From Cryobacterium breve (GTDB lineage: Bacteria > Actinomycetota > Actinomycetes > Actinomycetales > Microbacteriaceae), in NCBI RefSeq assembly GCF_004402375.1, contig NZ_SOGJ01000021.1, positions 173,210 to 237,209 on the forward strand: 64,000 nt of DNA, given 5' to 3'. Within the stretch, counting starts at the first letter, position 1, and every line of letters begins with the position of its first letter. This document shows, in pieces, positions 24,240 through 63,196 of the stretch. The notes below the pieces were generated by a model. It did no database searches. It was not told the origin of the DNA and saw only the letters and a program-made list of their open reading frames with translations. The position numbers and the translations under genes were made by a program.

Positions 24240-24316
24240 AATTCGACGGAGATTTCGCTCGAATCCGCGTGAAACATGGGGGAAACGGGCGAAATCGCTA
24301 AAATCTCCGTCGAATT
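24240..24316. repeat. 77-bp inverted-repeat element, copy A
   Basis: AATTCGACGGAGATTT (24240-24255) and its exact reverse complement (24301-24316) flank a 45-base interior. It lies between the convergent genes glmM and coaA. Three other copies of the same total length are at 48341, 59238 and 63120. The outer bases (CCGGACG on the left, GGTTCGG on the right) extend the palindrome imperfectly. No transposase gene is near, so a MITE- or REP-like element is the best description. Confidence 0.9.
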
Positions 24317-24412
24317 GGTTCGGTGTGCGTGTGCTCGGTCCTCGGGTGTGCCCGTTTCGGTGCAGAGCGAGCGGCACAGCGGCCGCTGTCGATCAGAATG
24401 GGCACTGCGCGG

Positions 24413-25369
24413 TCACACCTTGCGGAGCAGCACCTTGGAGACCGCGTGGTTCGCGTCCTTGCGCAGCACGAGGGTGGCGCGTGAACGGGTCGGCCGGATG
24501 TTGCGGAGCAGGTTGGGCTCGTTGATCTCGGTCCAGATCTCCCGCGCTCGGCTGCGCGCCTCTGGCTCGGTCATGCTCGCGTACCGGTGGAAGTACGACT
24601 TGGGGTTGCTGAATGCGCCGCGCTGCAGGTTCAGGAAGCGCTCCTCGTACCAGCGCGCGATATCCTGGGTGCGGGCATCCACATACACGGTGAAGTCGAA
24701 CAGGTCGCTGACGGCCAACCCGTGGCCTGGTCCGGGCGGCTGCAGCACGTTGAGACCTTCGACGATCAGGATGTCGGGCTGGCGCACGACGATCTGGGCG
24801 TCCGGCACGATGTCGTAGCTGAGGTGGGAATAGAACGGCGACCGCACCTCGGCAGCGCCGCTCTTGACCGCGGCTACGAAGCGCAGGAGGGCCCGTCGGT
24901 CATAAGACTCGGGGAACCCCTTGCGCTCCATCAGCCCCCGGCGGTTGAGCTCCGCGTTGGGCAGCAGAAAGCCGTCGGTGGTGACCAGTTCGACCCGCGG
25001 AGTGTCCTCCCAGCGGGCGAGGAGCTCACGCAGCAGCCGGGCGATGGTCGACTTGCCCACCGCGACCGACCCGGCGACGCCGATGACGAAGGGTGTGCGC
25101 TGGGCCCGTTCGCCGAGGAAGTCGCTCGTGGCCCGGTGCAGTTGGCGGGCGCCGGCGGCGTACAGGTTGAGCAGGCGGCTGAGCGGTAGGTAGACATCCG
25201 TGACCTCACCGAGGTCGAGCGGCTCACCCAGACCACGCAGCTGGACGATCTCGGTCTCCCGCAGAGGCAGGCGGGTTGTTGGCGCGAGGGCAGCCCAGTC
25301 TGCCCGGTCCAGTTCGACGAAGGGAGTGCTGTGGCCGTTGTTCCAAGGACTCGCAACCGGATCGGACAT
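24413..25369 (-). CDS. coaA: type I pantothenate kinase
   Basis: 318 residues. It phosphorylates pantothenate, the first step to coenzyme A. The P-loop is GVAGSVAVGKSTIARLL at about residues 97-113, followed by VELVTTDGFLLPN and the KGFPESYDRRALLRF region. The start at 25369 has a GGTGG site and gives the usual length; the frame stays open to 25900, but that part is antisense to glmS. It is divergent from glmS with only 33 bases between the start codons, so their promoters must overlap or lie in each other's coding region. Confidence 0.94.
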   Translation of the reverse strand: MSDPVASPWNNGHSTPFVELDRADWAALAPTTRLPLRETEIVQLRGLGEPLDLGEVTDVYLPLSRLLNLYAAGARQLHRATSDFLGERAQRTPFVIGVAGSVAVGKSTIARLLRELLARWEDTPRVELVTTDGFLLPNAELNRRGLMERKGFPESYDRRALLRFVAAVKSGAAEVRSPFYSHLSYDIVPDAQIVVRQPDILIVEGLNVLQPPGPGHGLAVSDLFDFTVYVDARTQDIARWYEERFLNLQRGAFSNPKSYFHRYASMTEPEARSRAREIWTEINEPNLLRNIRPTRSRATLVLRKDANHAVSKVLLRKV

Positions 25370-25402
25370 TCCACCGAGCTTACTCGGACTAATATCGCAG
25401 TC

Positions 25403-27253
25403 ATGTGTGGAATCGTTGGATACGTAGGAGACAACAAGAGCGTTCAGGTCCTGATGGGGGGTCTGCGGCGGCTTGAATACCGGGGGTACGACTCTGCGGG
25501 GATCGCCGTCATCGATGGTGAGGGCACGCTCAATACCGCTAAACGCGCCGGCAAACTGGCCGTTCTGGCTGCCGAGCTGGAGGCGAACCCGATCAACAAC
25601 GGGAACACCGGGATCGGGCACACCCGGTGGGCAACCCACGGGGCACCGAACGACCTGAACGCGCACCCGCACCTGGGTGACAACGGAAAACTTGCCCTTA
25701 TCCACAACGGAATTATTGAAAACTTCTCCGTCCTGAAGGACGAACTCCTCGCCGAGGGCTTCAACTTCGAGAGCGAGACCGACACCGAGGTCGCCGCCAT
25801 CCTCCTCGGGCGCGAATACCAGCGCGTTGGCGACCTGGGCGAAGCGTTCCGCGCGGTCGTCTCCCGGCTCGACGGAGCTTTCACCCTGCTGGCCGTGCAC
25901 CAGGACCAGCCCGGCGTGGTCGTCGGCGCCCGCCGCAACTCACCGCTCGTGATCGGCCTGGGCGACGGAGAGAACTTCCTCGGCTCCGACGTCGCCGCCT
26001 TCGTCGAGTACACCCGCCGCGCGGTCGCCATCGGCCAGGACCAGATCGTCACCATCACGCCCGACCTCGTCACGGTCACCGACTTCGCCGGCAACCCGGT
26101 CGAAACCGAAGAGTTCGACATCGCCTGGGACGCCTCCGCTTCCGAAAAGGGCGGTTGGTCCAGCTTCATGGCCAAGGAAGTCTCCGAGCAGCCGGATGCC
26201 GTGCGCAACACCCTGCGCGGCCGCATCCACGAGGGTCAGGCCGTTGTTCCCGAGCTGACCGAATTCGGCGACGACGTGCTCGCGGGCATCCGTCGAATCG
26301 TCATCGTCGCCTGCGGCACGGCGGCCAACGCCGGTTACGTCGCCAAGTACGCTATCGAGAAATGGACCCGGGTTCCGGTCGACATCGAACTCAGCCACGA
26401 GTTCCGCTACCGCGACCCGGTGCTGACCCCCGAGACCCTGGTGATCTCGATCAGCCAGTCCGGCGAGACCATGGACACGCTGATGGCAGTCAAGTTCGCC
26501 CGGGAATCCGGAGCGAAGGCCATCTCGATCTGCAATACGCAGGGTGCCACCATTCCCCGCGAGTCGGACGCCGTGATCTACACCCACGCGGGCCCTGAGG
26601 TCGCCGTGGCGTCCACCAAGGGTTTCACTGCCCAGATCGCCGCGCTCTATCTCTTCGCCCTGCACCTCGCCCGGGTGCGCGGCAGCATCAGCGCGGAGGA
26701 GTCCGCCGCTCAGATCACCGAGCTGCAGGCCATCCCGGACAAGCTGGCGACCACGCTGCTGCAGGAGTCCACGGTGCACGAGCTGGCCACCTGGATGGCC
26801 GACACGCGTGCCGTGCTGTTCCTCGGCCGCCACGTTGGCTTCCCGATCGCGCTCGAGGGCGCGCTCAAACTCAAGGAGCTCGCGTACATCCACGCCGAGG
26901 GCTTCGCCGCCGGTGAGCTCAAGCACGGCCCGATCGCGCTGATCGAGCCCGGCCAGCCGGTCTTCGTCGTCGTGCCGAGCCCGCGCGGCTCCGCTCACCT
27001 GCACCCCAAGGTGGTCTCCAACATCCAGGAGATCCGTGCCCGAGGCGCGCGAATCATCGCGATCGCCGAAGAGGGAGATGTCGCGGTGCTGCCGTTCGCG
27101 GACACCGTCATCCGCATTCCGCTGGCGTCGCCGCTGTTCGAGCCGCTGCTGGCCGTTGTGCCGCTGCAGATCTTCGCCATGGAACTCGCCACGGTGAAGG
27201 GACTCGACGTCGACCAGCCGCGCAACCTGGCGAAGTCCGTCACGGTCGAGTAA
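25403..27253 (+). CDS. glmS: glutamine-fructose-6-phosphate aminotransferase (isomerizing)
   Basis: 616 residues. It makes glucosamine-6-phosphate from fructose-6-phosphate and glutamine. The start MCGIVGYVG places the catalytic Cys at residue 2 after Met removal, so ATG 25403 is certain and the upstream opening to 25331 is not used. The glutaminase domain (IGHTRWATHGAPNDLNAHPH) is followed by two SIS sugar-isomerase domains (SISQSGETMDTLMAVKFARE) and the C-terminal AKSVTVE. No glmS ribozyme is possible in the 33-base gap to coaA. Confidence 0.97.
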   Translation: MCGIVGYVGDNKSVQVLMGGLRRLEYRGYDSAGIAVIDGEGTLNTAKRAGKLAVLAAELEANPINNGNTGIGHTRWATHGAPNDLNAHPHLGDNGKLALIHNGIIENFSVLKDELLAEGFNFESETDTEVAAILLGREYQRVGDLGEAFRAVVSRLDGAFTLLAVHQDQPGVVVGARRNSPLVIGLGDGENFLGSDVAAFVEYTRRAVAIGQDQIVTITPDLVTVTDFAGNPVETEEFDIAWDASASEKGGWSSFMAKEVSEQPDAVRNTLRGRIHEGQAVVPELTEFGDDVLAGIRRIVIVACGTAANAGYVAKYAIEKWTRVPVDIELSHEFRYRDPVLTPETLVISISQSGETMDTLMAVKFARESGAKAISICNTQGATIPRESDAVIYTHAGPEVAVASTKGFTAQIAALYLFALHLARVRGSISAEESAAQITELQAIPDKLATTLLQESTVHELATWMADTRAVLFLGRHVGFPIALEGALKLKELAYIHAEGFAAGELKHGPIALIEPGQPVFVVVPSPRGSAHLHPKVVSNIQEIRARGARIIAIAEEGDVAVLPFADTVIRIPLASPLFEPLLAVVPLQIFAMELATVKGLDVDQPRNLAKSVTVE

Positions 27254-62981: not shown

Positions 62982-63023
62982 CGGCAGCTGAACCACGGTG
63001 GCACGGATGCCGCCGGTCTGGGC

Positions 63024-63057
63024 CGACAGGGCCCGCCTCACGGGGCGGGCCCTGTCG
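63024..63057 (+). terminator. hairpin terminator after sucD
   Basis: CGACAGGGCCCGCC (63024-63037), loop TCACGG, exact complement GGCGGGCCCTGTCG (63044-63057): a perfect 14-bp stem followed by CTATTCC. It likely ends the sucCD transcript. Confidence 0.85.
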
Positions 63058-63119
63058 CTATTCCGGCCCGGGGCATCCGTTCGGGCCCTCAGGCTCGTGC
63101 GCGCCCCGTCGCCCGAACG

Positions 63120-63196
63120 AATTCGACGGAGATTCCCGCTGAAATGCGCCGAAATCGCGCCCAGGGGCCCAGATGGAGCAAAATCTCCGTCGAATT
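63120..63196. repeat. 77-bp inverted-repeat element, copy D
   Basis: AATTCGACGGAGATT (63120-63134) and the exact complement (63182-63196) flank 47 bases. The flanks are CCGAACG on the left and CGTCGGC on the right. It lies between the sucD terminator and the PerM-like gene, ending 58 bases before that gene's start codon, so it could lie in its leader. Confidence 0.9.

Follow-up and report, generated by a model that had tools for sequence, protein, structure and literature searches.

Repetitive extragenic palindrome (REP) doublets forming hairpins (REPINs), with their REP-associated tyrosine transposases (RAYTs), are the nearest known system to the element described here, a 77-bp inverted repeat found in four copies in a 64,000-nucleotide stretch (the window) of Cryobacterium breve (contig NZ_SOGJ01000021.1 of assembly GCF_004402375.1, positions 173,210 to 237,209). 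In the available part of PMC3116915, REPINs are described as 16-mers 71 bp apart, with a spacer of variable sequence and constrained length. CGTC-tagged REPs, according to the accessible sections of PMC3733652, lie between unidirectional or convergent genes, include in-gene copies, and have no dedicated transposase. REPs and bacterial interspersed mosaic elements (BIMEs) are dispersed and occur at 3' ends and between convergent genes, and REPs are reported to bind gyrase, as stated in the portion seen of PMC1525189. An earlier reading of the window from its letters (the sequence-only reading) knew of no named element with this arm. Rfam likewise gave no match on the window at gathering scores, and no description of the element was found in the open-licence literature on Cryobacterium or Microbacteriaceae repeats or on the arm string; palindrome and repeat mentions in the available part of PMC7381226 concern CRISPR. 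The family to which the four copies belong (family 1) is likely a REPIN-like repeat kept for the geometry of its duplex DNA, a candidate two-arm wrapping or bridging site.

All four elements lie where they had been placed, and each is exactly 77 bp long. Seven of the eight terminal arms are exact, and the eighth, on the right of copy B, departs from them at a single end base. The window holds 13 arm matches with at most three mismatches against 4.1 expected, a number reached by none of 100 shuffles. Conservation extends over an arm of about 24 nt (CGAACSAATTCGACGGAGATTYTG), which covers positions -5 to about 18 as CGAAC-S-AATTCGACGGAGATTYTG. Because it starts at -5, the CCGAAC-like flanks described outside the repeat are part of the arm, and positions -5 to -1 are conserved. 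The GC reported at positions 59-60 is real and is the mirror of G18 and C19 (78% and 58%).

The idea that only four copies exist genome-wide, with variable length elsewhere, does not hold, as the family is far larger and its length is nearly fixed. In the C. breve genome (G000), 91 forward and 86 reverse arms are found with at most one mismatch (reversed-pattern control 0), and 115 and 107 with at most two (control 2 and 0). Exact core pairs number 52 against 0 in the control, and the copy number is estimated at about 110. The measured set consists of 80 copies, 76 from retrieved stretches and 4 from the window; solitary arms (L207) and copies that look interrupted by insertions (L254, L269, L270) were excluded. 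Because these copies were gathered from listed arms (exact at one end or more in 79 of 80), the set leans toward good arms and the partner arm is the fairer measure. Partner arms are perfect in 41 copies, with one mismatch in 26, two in 11, and four in 1, and the 80th copy has one mismatch in each arm. The element is 77 bp long in 74 of the 80 copies, 78 bp in five, and 76 bp in one; the 74 copies of 77 bp were used for the copy-pair, period, fold, and distance analyses.

At least one arm with no more than one mismatch is present in 47 of 57 genomes of the genus set, and at least ten arms, strands summed, in 20 of them, with controls of 0 throughout. Copy number is patchy, from 0 to about 150 per genome. 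Named genomes yielded at least 107 stretches with exact arm pairs, at least 102 from Cryobacterium and at least five from Glaciibacter superstes, and one element of G022, which is counted among the 57 genus genomes, is identical to a G. superstes element. No exact pair was found in 15 genomes of other families of the same order, and viral_contigs gave no exact match. On contig G044:C1, exact copies occur at nine places, too few to judge chromosome-wide distribution; five of the nine interiors carry an off-centre CACGTGGGAGGCG-like motif and form a species-level subfamily. In G. superstes (L041, L067, L074, L138), both outer arms are changed together and are ACCRTTCGACGG-like instead of GAACSAATTCGACGG, and two copies are shorter (L041, 72 bp; L095, 68 bp). 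The joint arm change and the shorter lengths suggest co-evolution with a putative trans-acting protein.

The span between the arms is nearly fixed. The family 1 core is CGGAGATT-47-AATCTCCG, or 63 bp, and the 47-bp core gap occurs in 182 of 204 distinct pairs. Exact arms separated by 61-91 bp are found once in the 57 genomes, and spacers of 20-48 bp form 11 pairs in seven genomes, seven of these pairs being one base short. Length variation by whole helical turns is not claimed, with just two copies of 87 bp and one of 89 bp. The proposal that both arms lie on the same helix face was withdrawn, since the distance between centres is 63 bp for the 14-bp arms, or 6.0 turns at 10.5, but 56 bp for the 7-bp cores, or 5.3 turns. 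A second family was first met at an aligned site in Cryobacterium sp. M96 (G058), as an inverted repeat that shares just the inner arm CGGAGATTTT. Its arms are ACGTAANNNCGGAGATTTTCG, beginning ACGTAANNN. Exact matches occur in 9 of the 57 genomes at one to five places each; in G001 the spacer is longer and the kinship doubtful. Of 14 full copies, 11 have a length of 81 bp. When aligned on CGGAGATT, the 47-bp core gap is found in 14 of 19 distinct second-family pairs and in both pairs that could not be assigned by the outer arm. The cores of copy A likewise measure 63 bp from outer edge to outer edge, the same span as in the second family. Because the outer arms and interiors differ between the two families, the span itself is a conserved property.

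The interior has low base identity and alternates between A/T-rich and G/C-rich stretches, with A/T peaks near positions 15, 24, and 34 and mirrors at 44, 54, and 63. The CGAAA core of the sequence-only reading is present, as one among several A/T tracts about 10 bp apart. The best A/T period is 10.0 bp and lies far beyond 1000 shuffles, with a power of 48 against a null maximum of 1.2 in the 74 own copies and 53 against 1.0 in 109 named-genome copies. Individually, 62 of the 74 own copies and 97 of the 109 named copies exceed their own 95% shuffle level, compared with 5 of 160 flank windows. Mirrored interior positions 19-38 pair no better than chance (z from -3.1 to 1.9), and the interior is therefore not hairpin-shaped. 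Selection on geometry, which had been suggested, is strongly supported by the near-fixed length, the core span common to the second family, and the 10.0-bp phase. These data agree with one of the two geometries then offered, a protein bound at two spaced sites, and poorly with the other, an RNA fold, given interior pairing at chance and a mean fold z of -0.74.

Sites A, B, and D were located through their neighbouring genes, with 30 loci each (90 in total) listed from the 57 genomes. At site A, C. breve and M96 carry the element and G008, G012, G045, and G064 lack it. At site B it is present in C. breve, M96 (two copies, with right halves alike), and G059 and missing from G008, G045, and G012. 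The comparison with empty orthologous gaps that the sequence-only reading had proposed gave no exact boundaries, as the flanks are too diverged. Site D carries a paired element in 10 of the 30 listed loci (11 elements), always 77 bp with at most two arm mismatches; the interiors range from near-identical down to chance level, and 9 of the 11 elements are individually periodic. Among 79 orthologous pairs, length is unchanged in 76, and in the 75 with lengths of 77/77 bp and full flanks the arms are 97.8% identical, the interior 64%, and the adjacent flank 60%, compared with 49% for unrelated sequence.

Copies at these three sites are mostly intact or absent, with a few single-arm remnants. The 19 paired elements found through neighbouring genes have at most three mismatches in 28 arm positions and none has four to six, and no decayed pairs of 77-78 bp were seen in the 90 loci, which were rechecked. 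A further 23 weaker pairs (7-8 mismatches, 58-125 bp, none of them 77-78 bp) were found at sites B and D, and no such pair in the reversed-arm control. Except for those borrowing one arm of a real element, they are read as coding coincidences because they sit in open frames and mostly recur at the same spot of orthologous genes.

Copies favour gene 3' ends, especially convergent gaps, and avoid promoters. In C. breve, 32 copies lie in convergent, 40 in tandem, and 4 in divergent gaps, against 16, 60, and 40 element-free gaps of at least 100 bp (convergent excess, p 1.5e-5; divergent deficit, p 1.0e-6). The named loci agree, with 47, 48, and 9 copies against 27, 134, and 76 gaps. In C. breve, copies lie at a median of 51 bp from a gene 3' end and 109 bp from a 5' end. 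These gene calls were made by a simple codon-usage script, and individual assignments may be wrong. By the same calls, the earlier claim that all copies lie between genes is correct for the four in the window and fails elsewhere, as 3 own-genome and 10 named-genome copies overlap a called gene. Five of the overlapping copies were read; three are truly in-gene (78 bp) and two (77 bp) look like mis-called starts. The in-gene copies (L237 2517-2594, L053 6627-6704, L045 3235-3312) add 26 codons without breaking the frame and encode a peptide of the form (E/Q)FDGD...AKSPSNS. Their hosts are a methyltransferase-like gene in two species and a xylulokinase gene, and low-complexity expansions adjoin some of them. 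Most of nine aligned xylulokinase homologues lack the element stretch, and two have FDGD...SPSN-like traces.

The element has probably spread by duplication, because three of the four copy pairs within 3 kb are close relatives (mean of the four 29.5/43), and copies 3-60 kb apart show no resemblance. Within the C. breve genome, 48 interior pairs reach at least 27/43 identity against 2 expected. The closest two each join adjacent copies, at distances of 0.8 and 1.9 kb, and the top ten include one more such pair (0.4 kb). Pairs on the same contig 60-400 kb apart reach 26/43 in 8.6% of cases, against 3.0% between contigs. Recent spread, as it had been put, is not supported as such, since interiors differ widely and orthologous copies are old, yet the clear relatedness of those near neighbours stands. 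No target duplication was detected in 202 flank pairs (k = 2-9, offsets 0-8 bp), where at each offset no more than one pair shares 5 bp and none shares 6 bp or more. In copies at two contig ends of C. breve (L020/L269 and L021/L270, at C21 and C22), in L177 near base 119, and in L254 near base 2572, the second half is replaced near the middle. These copies look as if insertion sequences may target the element, and insertion into REPs is reported in the part of PMC1525189 that was seen. In three one-armed copies (L050 near 139, L078 near 127, L130 near 6797), the second arm changes at about the same point into similar sequence, GGCTCYCCTG..., which is perhaps a third related repeat.

The likeness to REPINs lies in the invariant inverted ends, fixed spacing, high copy number, extragenic position, and length-constrained variable spacer (described in the available part of PMC3116915). 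The element differs from the REPIN-RAYT system in that PF01797 is absent from the 57 genomes, interior pairing is at chance, the A/T phase is 10.0 bp, and the arm has no GTAG tag. With CGTC-tagged REPs it shares position, in-gene copies, the lack of a dedicated transposase, and CGTC within the arm (PMC3733652, in part). Those REPs, however, have stems of 8-9 bp and loops of 4-5 nt, whereas by eye the Cryobacterium arm can form a stem of at most 4 bp (CGAA-CSAA-TTCG). Miniature inverted-repeat transposable elements (MITEs) are similarly short with terminal inverted repeats, and at 77 bp the element has no apparent protein of its own; unlike in MITEs, no target duplication of 2-9 bp was found and the interiors are not near-identical. 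Dispersal and position at 3' ends and in convergent gaps recall BIME/REP gyrase sites (PMC1525189, in part), from which the Cryobacterium element differs in its near-fixed length and invariant arms.

Smooth bending toward one side is favoured where A/T tracts recur every 10 bp, and the length of a single turn of wrapped DNA is of the order of 77-87 bp. From the arms, span, phase, position, and the lack of decayed pairs at three sites, we infer that each copy may be a docking site for a putative DNA-binding protein, an explanation we favour while rating it slightly below an even chance. Docked on both inverted arms, the protein would coil the phased stretch between them into roughly one superhelical turn. 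Its role could be punctuating or buffering supercoils between transcription units; a part in supercoil partition is suggested because copies sit at transcription-unit ends.

Several results weigh against this docking site. No partner protein was identified in the searches described below. The gain or loss of elements at sites A and B, together with very different copy numbers between close species, is the behaviour of a selfish element. Single arms, which may be remnants, stand at site D in G008 (where the contig ends) and G055, and perhaps in decayed form in G016. The orthologous pairs are not independent, because most come from loci picked for exact arms and many from locus D. The second family, whose palindrome extends deep into the interior, is more hairpin-like than family 1, and its A/T signal is strongest at a period of 7.9 rather than 10. 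RNA folds of family 1 are slightly stabler than shuffles, 10 of 74 falling below z = -2. Across the named-genome copies, the edges of the two arms covary, both just outside the 77-mer (second and third base, z 8.7 and 6.4) and at its first and second base (z 8.4 and 4.9). We attribute this covariation to lineage-specific arms like those of Glaciibacter, as the C. breve genome by itself does not show it, but base pairing would look identical. In 27 close orthologous pairs, interior substitutions kept the A/T-versus-G/C class no more often than flank substitutions did (114 of 327 versus 28 of 70, p 0.41). Because this test was negative, continuing in-situ selection on phase is unsupported, and the phase may be partly inherited.

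The main and strongest rival is a MITE- or REPIN-like selfish element moved by a putative trans-acting transposase that has to draw its two ends together, the fixed span and phased bends being needed for that synapse; we regard this as a real possibility. It accounts for the patchy copy number, for orthologous sites filled in some genomes and empty in others, and for the lone arms at two or three loci, and related interiors within the genome (the 48 pairs against 2 expected) and in-frame insertions inside genes also speak for it. What it does not explain is the missing decayed 77-78 bp pairs at three sites beside orthologous interiors that have diverged far, and no target duplication of 2-9 bp is clearly beyond chance. 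A transposase was also sought. The RAYT/Y1 (IS200/IS605-type) domain PF01797 was absent from all 57 genus genomes, while 5 of 14 controls were positive; membership of the RAYT-REPIN system was therefore rejected, and a RAYT sharing these ends, which had been raised, is excluded at the Pfam level. No transposase was seen among the 25 commonest of 199 families in the flanking genes (120 of 144 listed genes scanned, 147 having been found and the longest excluded), a scan that could miss a rarer single recombinase gene. No parent element with the same ends appeared among exact-arm spacers of 20-91 bp, genus-wide or in part, kilobase spacings lying outside that search. The earlier remark that no copy is near a transposase holds for the eight flanking window genes tested.

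An RNA hairpin at mRNA 3' ends, acting as a terminator or mRNA stabiliser, is unlikely. The arms can pair, the 3'-end position suits it, the folds are slightly stable, and arm edges covary across species, but interior pairing is at chance and a strict length would not be expected. Ordinary hairpins precede the element about as often (0.71, n = 49) as they follow element-free genes (0.61, n = 131), a test that needs at least 40 nt ahead of the element and for which 46 of 95 ends were too short; copy D lies behind a separate GC-rich hairpin. The hairpin or terminator was thus left unsupported by mirror pairing, fold shuffles, and hairpins ahead of elements. Gyrase is generally described as universal, whereas much of the genus lacks the element, and a site for DNA gyrase or another topoisomerase, like REP/BIME sequences, has no obvious need for invariant 24-nt arms. 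We consider such a site improbable, even though the convergent-gene position fits, the 10-bp phase would suit wrapping, and REPs are reported to bind gyrase (PMC1525189, in part). Least probable of all, and very much so, is a site-specific recombination site or invertible segment, to which one orthologous pair points with an interior inverted between its arms (identity 0.53 forward, 0.91 reverse); such an inversion is clear in just 1 of 75 pairs.

Table 1. Family 1 elements in the window, with their extended arms and neighbouring genes.
Feature	Positions	Strand	Extended arms or mirror	Neighbouring genes and remarks
Copy A, 77 bp	24240..24316	.	24235-24257 and 24299-24321	Convergent: phosphoglucomutase-type gene (+), PRK-domain gene (-)
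Core CGGAGAT, copy A left arm	24247..24253	+	Mirror 24303-24309	
Copy B, 77 bp, changed right end base	48341..48417	.	48336-48358 and 48400-48422	FAD-dependent oxidoreductase (DAO) gene upstream of element
Copy C, 77 bp	59238..59314	.	59233-59255 and 59297-59319	Convergent: small open reading frame (+), DUF3054 gene (-)
Copy D, 77 bp	63120..63196	.	63115-63137 and 63179-63201	CoA-ligase gene upstream; paired orthologous copies in 9 other genomes

The docking site can also be put in a bolder form, which is possible and yet rather doubtful. The family would then be a sequence-encoded spool of one DNA turn, with about 100 dispersed sites at the ends of transcription units, locked in length and phased at 10 bp, which a lineage-specific protein would wrap so as to partition supercoils. 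REPIN architecture is usually explained by a hairpin and a RAYT; in Cryobacterium, no RAYT was found, there is no interior hairpin signal, and the duplex carries a 10.0-bp beat. If a protein wraps the element, the copies would provide a countable, deletable set of sites for testing the topological separation of transcription units, and could lead to a new nucleoid protein or transposase. Such a spool, if real, would be the bacterial counterpart of positioned nucleosomes and would add a new class to the elements of chromosomal architecture.

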